Origin: Metallosphaera tengchongensis
GTDB lineage: Archaea > Thermoproteota > Thermoprotei_A > Sulfolobales > Sulfolobaceae
Reading direction: 5' to 3'
DNA length: 64,000 bases
Assembly: GCF_013343295.1 (NCBI RefSeq)
Contig: NZ_CP049074.1
Location: 601,501 to 665,500 of the forward strand
In this document: piece by piece, positions 25,402-32,346 of the stretch
How the letters are laid out: every line of letters starts with the position of its first letter
How positions within the stretch are numbered: position 1 is the stretch's first letter
The notes under the pieces: model-generated
Seen by the model: only the letters and a program-made list of their open reading frames with translations
What the model was told of the DNA's origin: nothing
Databases searched by the model: none
Position numbers and translations under genes: made by a program

Positions 25402-25971
25402 CTACTTCAACCTCACTCTACTTTTCTTTATCTCAACTCTTCCAATTTTTACGAGATGCGATAGCTCCTCCCTAATTTCCTCCTTAGATCTCCTGAGCTT
25501 CCTTGATGAGATATTAACTAGGTCCTGGAGCGTAGCCTCTCCACCTAGCTCCCTCAGGATTTGGATCACGTCATCCCTCTCCTGAACGTCCTCTATTACG
25601 CCATGGTTTAACCTAAACAGGAACCTAGTCCCCTCCCCTATGGCCAAAAAGGAATTAGCATCGACCTTGGTAACCTTGAATTTCCTAGAATCTGGTAGTT
25701 TCAACTCCCTAATTGACGTGACCAGTAAGTAATTGGGAGGGACTTGGTTTTCGCTGTCAGCTTCAAATACCATGTTTACCGAACCTTGATCGCATGTTAA
25801 GTCTACGGAAAAGGGTACCAAGTTCCACTTTATTTTCTCTTGATTAAGTATGCAGACCTTTTCCCCTCTCCTAGTCAACTCTCTTGCTATAGAGAACGTG
25901 ATGGATAAATTAACACTATAATAGTAGGATACAATAAGGTGTTTCCCTGATAGGAGCTCCTCGAGGAACAT
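25402..25971 (-). CDS. Conserved hypothetical protein with C-terminal winged-helix region, 189 aa
   Basis: I do not recognise the N-terminal part (MFLEELLSGKHLIVSYYYSV), which reads like a small alpha/beta domain without an intact P-loop. The last 60 residues (IQILRELGGEATLQDLVNIS...LVKIGRVEIKKSRVRLK) look like a winged helix. It converges on leuS with a 2-nt gap and is divergent from hisC, sharing the intergenic GTTAAAAAC box. Confidence 0.65.
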   Translation of the reverse strand: MFLEELLSGKHLIVSYYYSVNLSITFSIARELTRRGEKVCILNQEKIKWNLVPFSVDLTCDQGSVNMVFEADSENQVPPNYLLVTSIRELKLPDSRKFKVTKVDANSFLAIGEGTRFLFRLNHGVIEDVQERDDVIQILRELGGEATLQDLVNISSRKLRRSKEEIREELSHLVKIGRVEIKKSRVRLK

Positions 25972-25990
25972 GAAGGAAAAAGCTTAAAGG

Positions 25991-26001
25991 AAGTTAAAAA
26001 C
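25991..26001. promoter_or_regulatory. Shared TATA-like box between the unknown gene and hisC
   Basis: AAGTTAAAAAC is centred near 25996, about 25 nt from the ATG of the minus-strand gene (25971) and about 26 nt from the proposed ATT start of hisC (26022). A second box, AGCTTAAAGG (25981-25990), could serve hisC with a short leader instead. Confidence 0.4.
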
Positions 26002-26021
26002 TATAACCACGAGGGATTCTT

Positions 26022-27098
26022 ATTGCACCAACCGACGTAAATGAATTAATATACCCCTGGTTAAGGGAGGCAAAGGAGTACGACTTCACTGACATAAAGG
26101 ACGGAATTAGGTTACACCTCAACGAGTCTCCCTATTCTCCACCGGATTTCGTATTGGAGGCTGTTTCTAAGTACTTGAGCAAGGGGAACAGGTATCAGCA
26201 TCCAGATCTCTCTAGGAGGTTCAAGGAGCTAGCAGCGGAGTACAACAAGGTTGAACCTGAGGAGATATTCCCCACGCCGGGAGGAGATGGAGCCATCAGG
26301 TCGGTGTTCATGAGCCTGGCCCAAACAGGCGATAACGTTGTTACTAACTATCCGAGTTATAGCATGTACTCGGTCTACTCCTCCTTTAGGGGGTTAAATC
26401 AAGTGAAGATATCATTGAAGGAAGGAGAAGATTGGTGGAATGAGGATTGGGAAAACTTGCTCTCAAACTCAAAGAAAGCCAGGTTAGTAGCCATAGACGA
26501 TCCAAACAACCCAACTGGATCCCCTATGTTAAGTGCCGACGAAAGTAAAATAGCAGAGCTTGCACAATCCACCAAAGGCTTTGTCCTCTTGGATGAGGCC
26601 TACTACGAGTTCTCAGGTTATACAGCGTCCCGGCTAGTTAGTAAGTACCCAAACCTAATTATTGTTAGAACCATGAGCAAGGCATTCTCCCTAGCCTCCT
26701 TCAGAGTGGGTTACCTCATTGCAAATAAAGATGTGGTGAAGACGCTTGAGAAGGGATCCACTCCGTTCGACGTAGCCTTACCTTCACTGATAGCTGGCAT
26801 CACGGCCCTGGAAAACCCTAAATACGCGAGGGACGTAGCTGGGGAAATATCTAGGAATAGAAACGAACTTTACAATTCGCTCAGGGGTATGGGGGTTAAG
26901 GTATACAAGTCCATCACAAATTTCCTTCTCATTAAACACCAAGGTGATTTAGTGAACCCTCTGCTTAGGAAGGGGATAGCGATCAGGAACCCAATGAAAG
27001 GATTTTATAGGGTCACAGTGGGGACAAGAGACCAGTGTAAAGTTTTCATTGAGAGGTTGGGTGAGATTCTTGAAAATAGCGATACCAAACAAGGGTAG
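26022..27098 (+). CDS. hisC: Histidinol-phosphate aminotransferase with near-cognate (ATT) start
   Basis: PLP enzyme of histidine synthesis (EC 2.6.1.9), about 358 residues if started at ATT 26022. Conserved N-terminal sequence ((M)[13 protein letters not shown] and [13 protein letters not shown], the substrate-binding part of the family) lies in frame upstream of the first canonical start, a TTG at 26154. The frame closes at a TAA at 26004 with no ATG, GTG or TTG between. GAGGG lies 6 nt before the ATT. Later landmarks are [17 protein letters not shown] and the PLP lysine in [10 protein letters not shown]. First gene of the his operon; it overlaps hisG by 29 nt. Confidence 0.88.
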
Positions 27099-27927
27099 AT
27101 TGCAGGGTCCAGCTATTCAATTTTTAAACTACGTTGGGATTAAGCCCCTCGCCAACGACGATAGGGCACTTATGGTTCCAACGAGTTGGGAAGGGGTTCA
27201 GCTAATAACCGTTAGAACAGAGGACATTCCAAGTATAGTGGAGACCGGAGCTGTGGATATAGGTATCACAGGGTTGGACTACGTCCTGGAATCTGAGGCA
27301 GATGTGGAGGAGTTGGTGAAACTTGACTTTGGAAGGTCTAGGATAGTCCTAGCAGTACCCCAGAGTTGGAACGTAGAAAGACCTGAGGAAATAAGGAGGG
27401 AGATTAGAATCGCGACCAAGTACTCCAACTTAGCTACTAAGTACTTGGAGAGGAAGGGATTGAAGGCCAAGCTTGTGAAAATTAGTGGAGCTGCTGAGAT
27501 CATGCCTTCCTTAGGAGCTGCTGATGCCATAATAGATGTGACGAGTACCGGCACGACCCTGAAGCTTCATGGCCTTAAGCCTATAGATACTGTGGTTGAA
27601 AGTTACGGTGTTGTAATAGGGAATAGATCGTGGGTAAAGAGCGAGGAGGCTGACAGGATAAACCTAGTCCTCACAATGATGAAGGGTGCATTAAACGCTA
27701 GGGGGAAGAAAATGATATTTATGAACGTTGCCGACGCCTACCTCTCCTCAGTTGTGTCTTCGTTACCAGCCATGCTTGCCCCAGCCATATCCAAGCTAAG
27801 TAACTCGGATGCCTGGGAAGTGGTCACGGTCACCGATGAGGATAGACTACCAGAGGTCATAGCTAAGGCAAAGACTGCTGGGGCAAAGGATATCGTAGTA
27901 GTTAACATTGAAAAGGTGATAAAGTGA
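27070..27927 (+). CDS. hisG: ATP phosphoribosyltransferase (long form)
   Basis: First committed step of histidine synthesis (EC 2.4.2.17), about 285 residues including the C-terminal regulatory ACT-like domain, so it needs no HisZ. Recognised by [11 protein letters not shown], the [11 protein letters not shown] strand and the PRPP loop DVTSTGTTL near residue 160. TTG at 27070 matches the normal N-terminus; the frame extends 21 nt upstream to another TTG. Feedback inhibition by histidine is expected of the long form. Confidence 0.95.
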
Positions 27928-28613
27928 AAGTGGTTCCGAGCATTGATATCAGTCAAGGCAAAGCAGTCAAGAGGGTGAAGGGCAGGGAGGGCACTGGGCT
28001 GATCCTCGGGGATCCCATAAAAATAGCTAGGGAGTTGAGATCGTTCGGATACGATGCAATCCATGTGGTTGACCTAGACGCTGCTGAGGGTAAGGGAGAC
28101 AACACGTCCTTAGTGGTGGAGATTGTCAAGGAAGGGTTCGACCATGTGAGTGTAGGGGGAGGGATTAGGACAAGGGAAAGACTGGAAAGACTGATCTCTT
28201 TAGGGGTAACCAGGGTAGTCATGTCTACTTTACCTTTCACCATGGTGAATGACTTCATGAAAATCTCCCAGGGATATCTGGACAAGGTGATGATCTCCGT
28301 GGACTATTGTGGCGATGAGGTATTGATAAAGGGCTGGAAGGCCAGCGCACTTTCAGTATCTAAGGCTCTAGAAATTGTGAGTTCCCTGGGAGTGAGAGGG
28401 GTTATATTCACTTACGTTTGTAATGAGGGCACAACCATGGGCATAGACCCGCAGGTAGGCGACTACGCACGGAGGGTTCCAGGAGAGAGGGGTTACGCTG
28501 GGGGGATAGGGACCTTTGAGGACTTGAGGTTACTAAGTTCAATGGGCTTCGACTTCGCCATAGTAGGTATGGCGCTCTATACTGGCGTTCTCAGGGGTGT
28601 CGTTGATGTCTAG
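27924..28613 (+). CDS. hisA: ProFAR isomerase HisA
   Basis: TIM-barrel isomerase of N'-ProFAR to PRFAR (EC 5.3.1.16), 229 codons. The catalytic Asp is in PSIDISQGKAVKR (residue 8) and the second Asp lies in VDYCGDEV. The phosphate-binding VGGGIRTRE and YAGGIGTFEDL loops are visible. The GTG start overlaps hisG by 4 nt. Confidence 0.93.
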   Translation: MKVVPSIDISQGKAVKRVKGREGTGLILGDPIKIARELRSFGYDAIHVVDLDAAEGKGDNTSLVVEIVKEGFDHVSVGGGIRTRERLERLISLGVTRVVMSTLPFTMVNDFMKISQGYLDKVMISVDYCGDEVLIKGWKASALSVSKALEIVSSLGVRGVIFTYVCNEGTTMGIDPQVGDYARRVPGERGYAGGIGTFEDLRLLSSMGFDFAIVGMALYTGVLRGVVDV

Positions 28614-29187
28614 GTATTCTGAAAAGGTGAGGGATACCAAGGAGACTAGAGTGCAGGTTAAGCTTGAGCTGGACGGTGACGGAAAAGTGGAGGTGAAAAC
28701 GCCAGTGTCCTTCTTCAATCATATGGTTCACTCCCTCCTCTTTTACATGGGTACAAACTCCCTTGTTGTCGCTGAGGACAAGCAGAACTTTGACGACCAC
28801 CACATTGTGGAAGATGTGGGGATAACCCTAGGACTTACCTTAAAGGAAGCCCTCGGGGACAAGAGGGGGATAAGAAGGTTCTCAAGCGCCATAGTGCCGA
28901 TGGACGAGGCGTTAGTTATGGTTGCTGTGGACGTGTCAGGGAGAGGTTACGCCTCCGTAAATCTGGACCTGAAGAGGGAAAAGGTTGGCGACCTGTCTAC
29001 AGAGAACGTGTCCCACTTCTTTTGGTCATTTGCGACCAATGCAGGGGTGACTCTTCACATTAGGAAACTGGACGGTTATAACGAGCATCACATAATAGAG
29101 GCCTCTTTTAAGGGGGTCGGTCTAGTCCTAAAGGACGCCTGTTCATTGACAGGAACGGACATCAGGAGCACTAAGGGATCACTATGA
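28606..29187 (+). CDS. hisB: Imidazoleglycerol-phosphate dehydratase
   Basis: Dehydratase step of histidine synthesis (EC 4.2.1.19), 193 codons from the ATG at 28606. It is monofunctional: the histidinol-phosphatase half of bacterial HisB is absent, so that enzyme must be encoded elsewhere. Metal-binding motifs DDHHIVEDVG and EHHIIEASFK are present. A GTG 9 nt upstream is an alternative start. It overlaps hisA by 8 nt. Confidence 0.95.
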   Translation: MSRYSEKVRDTKETRVQVKLELDGDGKVEVKTPVSFFNHMVHSLLFYMGTNSLVVAEDKQNFDDHHIVEDVGITLGLTLKEALGDKRGIRRFSSAIVPMDEALVMVAVDVSGRGYASVNLDLKREKVGDLSTENVSHFFWSFATNAGVTLHIRKLDGYNEHHIIEASFKGVGLVLKDACSLTGTDIRSTKGSL

Positions 29188-29939
29188 CGACTAAGAGGAT
29201 AATAGCTTGCTTAGACGTAAAGGACGGGAAAGTGGTTAAGGGCGTGAAATTCTTAGATCTGAAGTTGAAAGGGGATCCTGCAGAGTTGGCATCAAGGTAT
29301 GAGGAGGAGGGGGCAGACGAAATAGTATTCCTCGACATCTCAGCCACAATAGAAGGAAGGAGGACCCTGTTGGAAAAGGTTAGGGAGACCGCAAGCGTTC
29401 TATCCATACCCCTTACCGTCGGAGGAGGGGTAAGGTCAGTTGAGGACGTCTCTAGACTGCTTTCCAACGGAGCTGATAAGGTTAGCTTAAACACCATTTC
29501 AGTCGAGAACCCGGCGGTTGTCTCTGAAGCCTCCAGAGAATTTGGAGCGCAAGCCGTGGTGGTTGCGATCGACGCCAAGAAGGAGGGAAAATCGTGGAGA
29601 GTATTTACCAAATCTGGTACCAAGGACACAGGGCTAGACGTCTTAGCATGGGCTAAGAAAGTTGAGGTACTAGGAGCAGGGGAGATCCTCCTCACAAGCA
29701 TAGACAGAGACGGAACCAGGGAAGGATTTGACGTGGAGTTAACCAAGAACGTTGTAGAAATTACGAACATACCTGTAATAGCGAGCGGTGGTGCAGGAAG
29801 ACCGGAGCACTTCCTGGACGTCTTTAAGCTTTCTGGTGCAGATGCAGCCCTAGCCGCAGGTATCTTCCACGATGGCGTGGTAAGGATACGGGACTTAAAG
29901 GATTACTTAAAAAGGGAGGGGGTAGAGGTTAGAGCATGA
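29184..29939 (+). CDS. hisF: Imidazole glycerol phosphate synthase cyclase subunit
   Basis: TIM-barrel cyclase that works with HisH (EC 4.3.2.10), 251 codons. Catalytic Asp residues are in IACLDVKDGKVVKG (residue 11) and SIDRDGTREGFD (near residue 174). Phosphate loops VGGGVRSVED and ASGGAGRPEH are clear. ATG start overlapping hisB by 4 nt. Confidence 0.97.
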   Translation: MTTKRIIACLDVKDGKVVKGVKFLDLKLKGDPAELASRYEEEGADEIVFLDISATIEGRRTLLEKVRETASVLSIPLTVGGGVRSVEDVSRLLSNGADKVSLNTISVENPAVVSEASREFGAQAVVVAIDAKKEGKSWRVFTKSGTKDTGLDVLAWAKKVEVLGAGEILLTSIDRDGTREGFDVELTKNVVEITNIPVIASGGAGRPEHFLDVFKLSGADAALAAGIFHDGVVRIRDLKDYLKREGVEVRA

Positions 29940-31123
29940 TAAGGAGAGAGTTACCGAAGAGAAGGGTCCAGTCCTTCTCTGACGTTTTAGACAGGGTTAG
30001 GGAAATTATAAATAGGGTAAGGGTAGGTGGCGACCAAGCTCTGAGGGAGCTTACTTTACAGATAGACGGTGTTAAGTTGGATAGGCTTGTGTTGGAGGAC
30101 AGTTACATTAAGGAGAGATCTGAAGTCCTTGACCCTAAGGTTAAAGAGGCGATAGACAACGTTTGGCTCCAACTGACTTCATTCCACGATCTCATTAAGC
30201 CACCTAACCTGGGTGGGGGAAGCGAGGGGGTGGAGTACGGGATAATATGGAAACCTATTAGGAAGCTTGGGATATACGTTCCTGGAGGGAAGAAAGCCTA
30301 TCCCTCCTCGTTAATGATGGCTGGAATTCCGGCTAAGATAGCTGGAGTGAAGGAGATATTTGTATCCACGCCAACGAGGGGAGATCTGGACCCAGCGATT
30401 GCTTATATTGCACAGAAACTTCAAGTCAAGAACGTCTATCCCATAGGAGGAGCTCAGGCAATAGCAGCTATGGCTTACGGAACTGAGAGCGTGAAGGCGG
30501 TGGACAAAATAGTTGGTCCAGGGAATGTGTACGTTCAGGGTGCCAAGTTTTTAGTTAGCAGTGACGTCGGAATAGACGCAATTGAAGGGCCTACAGAGCT
30601 CGTGATCATTGCAGATGAGAACGCCAATCCTAAGAACGTTGCCCTAGACCTTATGGCACAGGGAGAGCACGGTTCTTCCTCAATGTTGGTACTAATTTCA
30701 AACTCCGCCGAGTTGCTGAATGAAGTTTCGAACCTCCTTCAAGGGGATAACGAGTTCTACTTGGTGAAAGTCTCTTCCTTAGAGGAGGGCATCCAGATAG
30801 CTAATGAGCTGGCTCCAGAACACCTGTCCTTATACACTTCTAGGGCAAGGGAACTTCTAGCGAGGGTGGAGAACGCCGGAGCTATCACACTTGGAAACAC
30901 TCCGCCAGCTCTTATTGACTACTCCGCTGGACCTGATCACATACTTCCCACTAACGGTTGGGCTAGATTTAAGGGAGGGCTCACGGTATTCGACTTCCTA
31001 AAGGGCATATCCTACGTTAGGGCGGAAAGGATTTCCGAGTCCCTGGTGAAATCTGCTGAGATTATTGCGAGATATGAAGGTTTTAACGTTCACGCCAATA
31101 GCGTAGGTGTTAGATATGAGTGA
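29936..31123 (+). CDS. hisD: Histidinol dehydrogenase
   Basis: Zinc enzyme oxidising histidinol to histidine with NAD (EC 1.1.1.23), 395 codons, a little shorter than bacterial forms (about 430). Signature stretches include YVPGGKKAYPSSLMM, IVGPGNVYVQGAK, the zinc/His region AQGEHGSSSM, and DYSAGPDHILPTNGWAR. It overlaps hisF by 4 nt and hisE by 8 nt. Confidence 0.96.
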   Translation: MIRRELPKRRVQSFSDVLDRVREIINRVRVGGDQALRELTLQIDGVKLDRLVLEDSYIKERSEVLDPKVKEAIDNVWLQLTSFHDLIKPPNLGGGSEGVEYGIIWKPIRKLGIYVPGGKKAYPSSLMMAGIPAKIAGVKEIFVSTPTRGDLDPAIAYIAQKLQVKNVYPIGGAQAIAAMAYGTESVKAVDKIVGPGNVYVQGAKFLVSSDVGIDAIEGPTELVIIADENANPKNVALDLMAQGEHGSSSMLVLISNSAELLNEVSNLLQGDNEFYLVKVSSLEEGIQIANELAPEHLSLYTSRARELLARVENAGAITLGNTPPALIDYSAGPDHILPTNGWARFKGGLTVFDFLKGISYVRAERISESLVKSAEIIARYEGFNVHANSVGVRYE

Positions 31124-31397
31124 AGTGTTGGGAGATCTCTACTCCGTAATACAGAAGAGGTTGAAGGAGATGCCTGAACAAAGCTATACCGCCTCCTTAG
31201 TAAGGAAAGGGAAACATTACGTAGCGAGGAAAGTGGGTGAAGAAGCTGTAGAAGTAGTAACGGCGTCCCTAGCTGAGGGGAGGGAGAGAGTGATAAGTGA
31301 GAGCGCAGACCTCCTTTACCACCTTCTGGTTCTTTTGGCTCTAGATGGGATATCCCTAGATGAAGTATACGCTGAATTAAGGAGGAGAATGAGATGA
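31116..31397 (+). CDS. hisE: Phosphoribosyl-ATP pyrophosphatase
   Basis: Second step of histidine synthesis (EC 3.6.1.31), about 93 residues from the ATG at 31116 (MSEVLGDLYSVI). The MazG-like metal-binding helix GEEAVEVVTASL and the later ESADLLYHLLVLL helix define the family. An upstream GTG at 31107 is possible. In this operon hisE is separate from hisI. Confidence 0.93.
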   Translation: MSEVLGDLYSVIQKRLKEMPEQSYTASLVRKGKHYVARKVGEEAVEVVTASLAEGRERVISESADLLYHLLVLLALDGISLDEVYAELRRRMR

Positions 31398-31981
31398 AGG
31401 CAGTTGTGCTCAATTACGGTGTAGGTAACCTCTTCAGCATTTCCTCTGCTCTCAGGAAGCATGGACTTGAGGTAGAGATCCTCAACGAACCCAAAGAAGC
31501 TGACTTGGTAGTTTTGCCAGGAGTTGGCGCATTCAACGCTGTGGGTACTTTCCTTGAAAGATGGAGAGATGAGCTGAACGAATTAAGGAAATCAGGCACT
31601 CGCTTCCTGGGCGTGTGTCTCGGTATGCAGGTTCTATTTGAGGAAGGCAATGAAGGGGGTAGGACCAGAGGGTTAGGGTGGCTCCCTGGACGGGTAGACC
31701 TCTTGGTGAATGCCCCTAAGCTACCTCATATCGGATGGGACGTCCTGGTTGAGGGTACCCCATGTGAGATGAACGAAGGTCTGCAAGGGAAGTACGCCTA
31801 TTTCGTACACAGCTATGTAGCCTACACCCCTGAAAAACCAGCCATGACTTCGGTTTACGGAGTGGAGTTCCCTGCTCTAGTGTGCAAGGGTGAAGTCGTA
31901 GGGACTCAGTTCCATCCTGAGAAAAGCGGAGAGACAGGTAAAGTATTCTTTTCGAATTTAATGAGGTGGCTTAAGACATGA
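31394..31981 (+). CDS. hisH: Imidazole glycerol phosphate synthase glutaminase subunit
   Basis: Class I glutamine amidotransferase partner of HisF, 195 codons. The nucleophile is in LGVCLGMQVLFE (near residue 77) and the His-x-Glu pair in GTQFHPEKSG. The conserved VVLPGVGAF precedes them. It overlaps hisE and hisI by 4 nt each. Confidence 0.95.
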   Translation: MKAVVLNYGVGNLFSISSALRKHGLEVEILNEPKEADLVVLPGVGAFNAVGTFLERWRDELNELRKSGTRFLGVCLGMQVLFEEGNEGGRTRGLGWLPGRVDLLVNAPKLPHIGWDVLVEGTPCEMNEGLQGKYAYFVHSYVAYTPEKPAMTSVYGVEFPALVCKGEVVGTQFHPEKSGETGKVFFSNLMRWLKT

Positions 31982-32346
31982 GGTTGACCAGGAATGCTGC
32001 TGAAGCACTAGCTTCAAAATTGAGATACAGGCATGAAATGGACACGGTAATAGCTGTCCTTCAGCACCACGAGAGTAGAGAGGTTCTGATGGTGGGTAAC
32101 ATGAACAGGGAAGCTGTAATCCTGACCTTAACTACAGGCTTAGTACATTTTTGGTCCATATCAAGGGGAAAGATATGGTTGAAGGGAGAGACGAGCGGTC
32201 ATTATCAAGAGGTTCGAAAGGTCAAGGTGGACTGTGACGAAGATGCGCTTGTAATTGAGGTTATCCCTAAAGGTCCAACTTGTCATACTGGAAACCAATC
32301 CTGCTTTTACAGGAACTTGGAGGAATTAGGGTCGTCTGTATCGTGA
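31978..32346 (+). CDS. hisI: Phosphoribosyl-AMP cyclohydrolase
   Basis: Third step of histidine synthesis (EC 3.5.4.19), 122 codons. Zinc/magnesium ligands are seen in VKVDCDEDAL and in CHTGNQSCFY at the C-terminus. NREAVILTLTTGLVHFWSISR is the family core. Last gene of the operon; an inverted repeat follows 24 nt downstream. Confidence 0.94.
   Translation: MRLTRNAAEALASKLRYRHEMDTVIAVLQHHESREVLMVGNMNREAVILTLTTGLVHFWSISRGKIWLKGETSGHYQEVRKVKVDCDEDALVIEVIPKGPTCHTGNQSCFYRNLEELGSSVS

Follow-up and report, generated by a model that had tools for sequence, protein, structure and literature searches.

The heptamer ATTGCAY lies in frame and at the same place in every operon-heading hisC, in 43 genomes from three Sulfolobales families. 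Its invariant bases exactly spell AUU in the hisC frame and, shifted one base downstream, UUG-CAY, which joins a canonical start to a His codon. We regard this double start, AUUGCAY, as almost certainly genuine and under selection. The overlapping UUG-His start was absent from the original prediction, and it is what sequence conservation points to. From this architecture (a heptamer fixed in frame and tied to the intact operon, with no conserved canonical start) we infer a mechanism in which the overlapping UUG-His start would sense histidyl-tRNA, a reading to which we give not quite an even chance.

Reading frame and candidate start of hisC

The window, that is the whole stretch of 64,000 nucleotides analysed, belongs to a genome of 2.18 Mb in a single contig. 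It carries the his operon in the order hisC-G-A-B-F-D-E-H-I, next to a divergent gene:

25402..25971 (ATG at 25971), minus strand: divergent gene, 189 aa, no Pfam match
26022..27098, plus strand: hisC, histidinol-phosphate aminotransferase, 358 aa if read from the candidate ATT start (Pfam PF00155; best solved relatives)
27070..27927, plus strand: hisG, overlapping the 3' end of hisC; start codon TTG, preceded by GGTGA (Pfam PF01634)
27924..32346, plus strand: hisA, hisB, hisF, hisD, hisE, hisH and hisI (ORFs and Pfam)

That hisC is the first of nine his genes, as originally predicted, agrees with the ORFs, with Pfam and with tblastn against relatives, which established hisE and the gene order. 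The divergent gene adjoins hisC in 29 of 30 Sulfolobaceae and its identity falls to about 30% between genera; no counterpart was found beside hisC in families f2 and f3, and the gene is therefore not tied to the heptamer.

In the hisC frame the stop codon TAA at 26004-26006 is followed by CCA CGA GGG ATT CTT ATT GCA CCA ACC. No ATG, GTG or TTG occurs in this frame of the window sequence from TAA 26004 to TTG 26154, which is the first such codon (codon index 44) and lies past RLHLNESP. The candidate ATT is at 26022-26024 with GAGGG (26011-26015) 6 nt upstream, and these coordinates of the original prediction hold in the sequence. Another in-frame ATT precedes it at 26016 and is not the conserved one.

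The encoded protein has the aminotransferase fold I (PF00155), matches PDB HisC chains (to 1.8e-34) and sits in a his operon context, which together place it in the HisC class. Among solved structures its best relatives are histidinol-phosphate aminotransferases, and the alignment to them starts at residue 15-26. RLHLNESP is invariant in relatives and falls within this alignment. Frame 0 is kept in all 43 orthologues while the distance from ATT to RLHLNE ranges from 18 to 33 codons; 27 of the 43 have no canonical start between the two, and in 7 species a stop codon stands immediately 5' of ATT. Because of these preceding stops, the missing canonical starts and the frame kept despite variable spacing, entry into frame 0 at AUU is well supported. 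The frame is thus conserved with no usable ATG, GTG or TTG before essential residues, as expected of a non-canonical AUU start, and AUU 26022 is very probably the functional start of hisC. A sequencing error or a pseudogene as the source of ATT is ruled out by its presence in 43 genomes, and the comparison of hisC starts among related genomes that the original prediction had proposed thereby supports its choice of ATT 26022. In one locus (L150, genome G042) an in-frame ATG lies two codons 5' of ATTGCAC, in the probable leader, and the heptamer is still kept.

Conservation of the heptamer and its link to the operon

Two further features overlap the start of hisC:

26022..26028, plus strand: heptamer ATTGCAC (consensus ATTGCAY), read AUU-GCA in frame 0 and UUG-CAY in frame +1; present in 43/43 intact his operons of three families
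26023..26040, plus strand: mini-ORF in the +1 frame, TTG CAC CAA CCG ACG TAA (M-H-Q-P-T-stop); TTG-CAY in 43/43

All 31 Sulfolobaceae genomes examined have a hisC homologue, and ATTGCAY is in frame in 30 of them, the exception being G011. Outside this family the heptamer is present in 10/10 hisC of genus g13 (f3) and in 3/3 close hisC in f2. The 43-row table was built by requiring ATTGCA; the denominators are 31, 10 and 3, and the motif is missing from G011 and from G060, whose hisC is distant. A scan of a wider contig collection returned distant HisC only and no close relatives.

Positions +1 to +6 are identical in all 43 sequences, position +7 is a pyrimidine throughout (30 C, 13 T), and position +8 takes all four bases. 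On a HisC tree computed without the first eight codons, +1 to +6 can be explained without any change and +7 with four, all between C and T; positions just 3' of +7 show several purine/pyrimidine switches. Of the 42 columns whose residue is invariant and degenerate (40 sequences counted), only those of ATT and GCA keep a single codon throughout, while the remaining invariant Ala columns of hisC use all four Ala codons. The constraint therefore acts on nucleotides. No other hisC column combines a start in the +1 frame with a following His codon in at least three species. No species with an intact operon has ATG in place of ATT; one T-to-G substitution is all that this change takes, and it would abolish UUG.

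These patterns bear on another explanation, in which AUU is a plain conserved weak start that holds HisC or operon expression low and GCAY is just a favourable context downstream of it, with no sensing of histidine. An AUU in frame in 43/43 fits such a start; AUU starts with regulatory weight are found in bacteria (infC) and GCA is frequent as a second codon, both of which count in its favour. However, GCA is never replaced by another Ala codon, and +7 is always a pyrimidine although codon 3 encodes six amino acids (P, S, Y, H, L or C) across the 43. We consider this explanation rather unlikely.

The motif accompanies the operon rather than the protein. hisG lies directly downstream of hisC in all 43 motif-bearing loci, and the motif is absent where hisC is apart from hisG or outside the three families. 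The clearest case is G011, of the same family (one contig, 91% completeness), where hisC stands alone:

L172 (G011:C1:560000-573000; also L050): stand-alone hisC of G011, ATG start, no motif

Neither hisG nor hisD was detected in G011, which suggests that this genome lost histidine synthesis and is probably an auxotroph retaining the aminotransferase. G060 is a weaker case, since hisG is missing but hisD is present and the genome is incomplete; its distant hisC has no motif. Motif-less hisC have an upstream ATG or GTG in G011 and G056, and a TTG at the match edge in G050. In G200 and G057, from other families, hisC and hisG are adjacent and the motif is absent, so the motif is a device of the three families only. 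The association with the operon supports the earlier proposal that a weak start tunes the pathway.

Past the heptamer, conservation extends over 26022-26033 (ATTGCACCAACC, with fixed wobble bases) in most of the Sulfolobaceae and is lost in f2, f3 and divergent genera; three loci (L024, L025, L030) retain only ATTGCATC. A search with the 21-nt motif that tolerated up to 3 mismatches hit the genome only once, and a repeated genomic motif or regulon was rejected for this single-copy element. The 14-mer is present in 17 of 31 Sulfolobaceae genomes, with one additional copy apart from hisC, in G003 (L037, G003:C1:591308-591321, TTATTGCACCAACC), probably by chance.

A contiguous, near-invariant block that is unique in the genome and has a GG at fixed distance might also be the binding site of a trans-acting regulator, either a protein or a small RNA, recognizing AUUGCAY and the upstream GG and so covering the start, with TTG-His coincidental. 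Against such a site, no palindrome was seen and no conserved RNA fold was found: the region from -12 to +60 gave no consensus structure and fold energies near random, and the motif region had no Rfam match. Alternative hairpins or a terminator, the marks of a leader-peptide attenuator, were likewise not found. Moreover, the hisC frame is preserved without exception, even in f3, where the TATA-like box lies at varying distances, and the fixed bases are just those required for AUU and UUG-CAY. Binding by a regulator is, in our view, unlikely.

Predicted promoter and leader, and a Shine-Dalgarno-like sequence

Three elements lie upstream of the heptamer:

25980..25988, plus strand: probable TATA region of the his operon, AAGCTTAAA, at -42 from ATT; conserved position, putative promoter function
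25993..26001, minus strand: GTTAAAAAC box, GTTTTTAAC on the minus strand, about 26 nt from the divergent ATG; this form only in same-genus relatives
26011..26017, plus strand: GAGGGAT, Shine-Dalgarno-like by duplex energy (GAGGTGAT minus one T)

Pattern matching places the start of a TATA-like sequence between -41 and -43 in 28 of 30 Sulfolobaceae, and two more have AACGTTATTT there by eye. Its distance is more variable in f3, where leaders look longer. The usual spacing from an archaeal TATA box to the transcript start is about 26 nt, and the box at -42 thus predicts a his transcript leader of about 11 nt. A start near -11 would not qualify as leaderless (start within 5 nt).

The original prediction had named a leaderless or short-leader mRNA as part of its confirmation and had drawn attention to GTTAAAAAC, which begins 4 nt past the TATA-like box. 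The box is indeed about equidistant from ATT 26022 and the divergent ATG 25971, but as a his promoter it is not supported, its form being seen in one genus only. Since it is confined in this way and, read on the minus strand, is spaced from the divergent ATG as a promoter would be, GTTAAAAAC is more likely the TATA box of the divergent gene than of the his operon. A leaderless his mRNA beginning at ATT, driven by a GTTAAAAAC box common to both genes, would suit the distance of about 26 nt to either start and is very improbable, since the family-wide box at -42 implies a leader of about 11 nt and the f3 leaders look longer still; this part of the original prediction is left unsupported. Even less credible is a start at TTG 26154, the first canonical start codon in frame, or at another canonical codon with the upstream frame untranslated, as the protein would lose RLHLNESP, invariant and alignable to solved HisC structures, and canonical starts 5' of it differ in place from species to species.

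The duplex of GAGGGAT with GGAUCACCUCC has an energy of -11.8 kcal/mol, equalled here by 0 of 200 shuffles; this anti-Shine-Dalgarno sequence is an assumed one, based on general background and on the CCUCC end given in PMC11698992. Pairing is strong just in this genus and a few others and weak in many other genera, and we rejected a Shine-Dalgarno sequence as a universal feature. The GG at -9/-8 is nevertheless kept in 41-42 of the 43. In S. solfataricus, mRNAs are for the most part leaderless (PMC11698992).

Possible sensing of histidyl-tRNA at the start codon

The reading that we prefer makes the UUG-His start a one-codon histidine sensor. The short leader would position ribosomes, which would mostly engage UUG, a codon that can act as a start in all archaeal mRNA types and is accepted in S. 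solfataricus (PMC7531240). With plentiful histidyl-tRNA, UUG-CAY would be read and the ribosome would end in the short out-of-frame ORF, giving little HisC. When histidyl-tRNA is scarce, the ribosome would pause, the initiator tRNA being paired to UUG while the His codon in the A site stays empty. This tRNA might then re-pair one base back on AUU, moving GCA into the A site and opening frame 0, so that HisC and the coupled his genes would be produced. From the sequence, the initiator anticodon CAU forms two Watson-Crick pairs on UUG and two on AUU. We rate this slip from UUG to AUU as somewhat less likely than not; in a weaker form, to which the sequence evidence applies just as well, direct initiation at AUU and at UUG would compete with no slippage.

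A sensor would explain the invariant GCA and the pyrimidine at +7, and its sign is right for a biosynthetic operon: scarcity of histidine would raise HisC through a slip to AUU but lower it through plain stalling on UUG-CAY. Also in its favour are frame 0 in 43/43, the lack of any ATT-to-ATG change, the single-codon ATT and GCA, the link between motif and operon, the motif-less G011, and the fact that hungry codons are known to cause frameshifting (PMC5009743). Several observations count against it. The finding that +7 alternates between C and T alone depends on 4 inferred changes, and would arise by chance with a probability of roughly 0.05 if pyrimidine-purine switches made up about half of all changes. 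The mini-ORF, 3-24 codons long over the 43 loci, has a length typical of the +1 frame and is not shorter than expected by chance, leaving selection for a short mini-ORF unsupported. A sensor gives no account of the GG at -9/-8 or of the ACCAACC tail common to most of the family. Neither the trp operon nor any of three leuA-like genes in this genome showed the same overlap, L150 has its upstream in-frame ATG, and G200 and G057 have no motif. Finally, slow A sites are more important for +1 than for -1 shifts (PMC5009743).

The proposed control resembles bacterial his and trp leader-peptide attenuation in having a short ORF with a codon for the end product at the operon head, where the ribosome would sense charged tRNA. 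Unlike those systems, hisC has one His codon immediately behind the start, in an ORF that overlaps the first structural gene in another frame, with neither a conserved RNA fold nor a separate leader. In bacterial infC a conserved weak AUU start has a regulatory role and senses IF3, its own product; AUU is common to both, and hisC is a histidine gene whose AUU overlaps an out-of-frame UUG-His. The dicistrovirus IGR IRES likewise chooses between frames 0 and +1 at initiation without AUG, as set by the A-site aminoacyl-tRNA (PMC4132737), but it is a structured viral IRES, while hisC has a short archaeal leader and presumably an initiator tRNA. The alpha-fucosidase of S. solfataricus uses a programmed -1 frameshift, the sole archaeal -1 case reported in PMC8211752; it would share -1 recoding and the archaeal family with hisC, but depends on a slippery A-run and a stem-loop inside the gene, whereas the shift proposed for hisC is at the start codon. 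In E. coli, too, an empty A-site codon under amino-acid starvation promotes a shift, though such shifts are mostly non-programmed and occur in elongation (PMC5009743), in contrast to the conserved initiation switch proposed here.

Our searches of the open-access literature turned up neither an archaeal hisC reported to start at AUU nor this element in a Sulfolobus his leader, nor any archaeal amino-acid operon under control resembling that by a leader peptide. If the sensor is real, a seven-base element in three families of heat- and acid-loving archaea (Sulfolobales), model Sulfolobus-type species among them, might be the smallest known sensor of an amino acid. A start-codon frame switch would then run an amino-acid operon without a leader gene, terminator or regulator protein, and a reading frame could be chosen at the initiation step. 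Were the AUU start alone real, it would still be a rare start codon fixed over three families and heading a nine-gene operon. hisC is likely mis-annotated wherever only ATG, GTG and TTG are allowed.

One His codon of the mini-ORF, at position 2, is invariant (43/43). Two occur only in L146 and L147 (f3), where the mini-ORF reads TTG CAT CAC stop, with two His codons in three codons.
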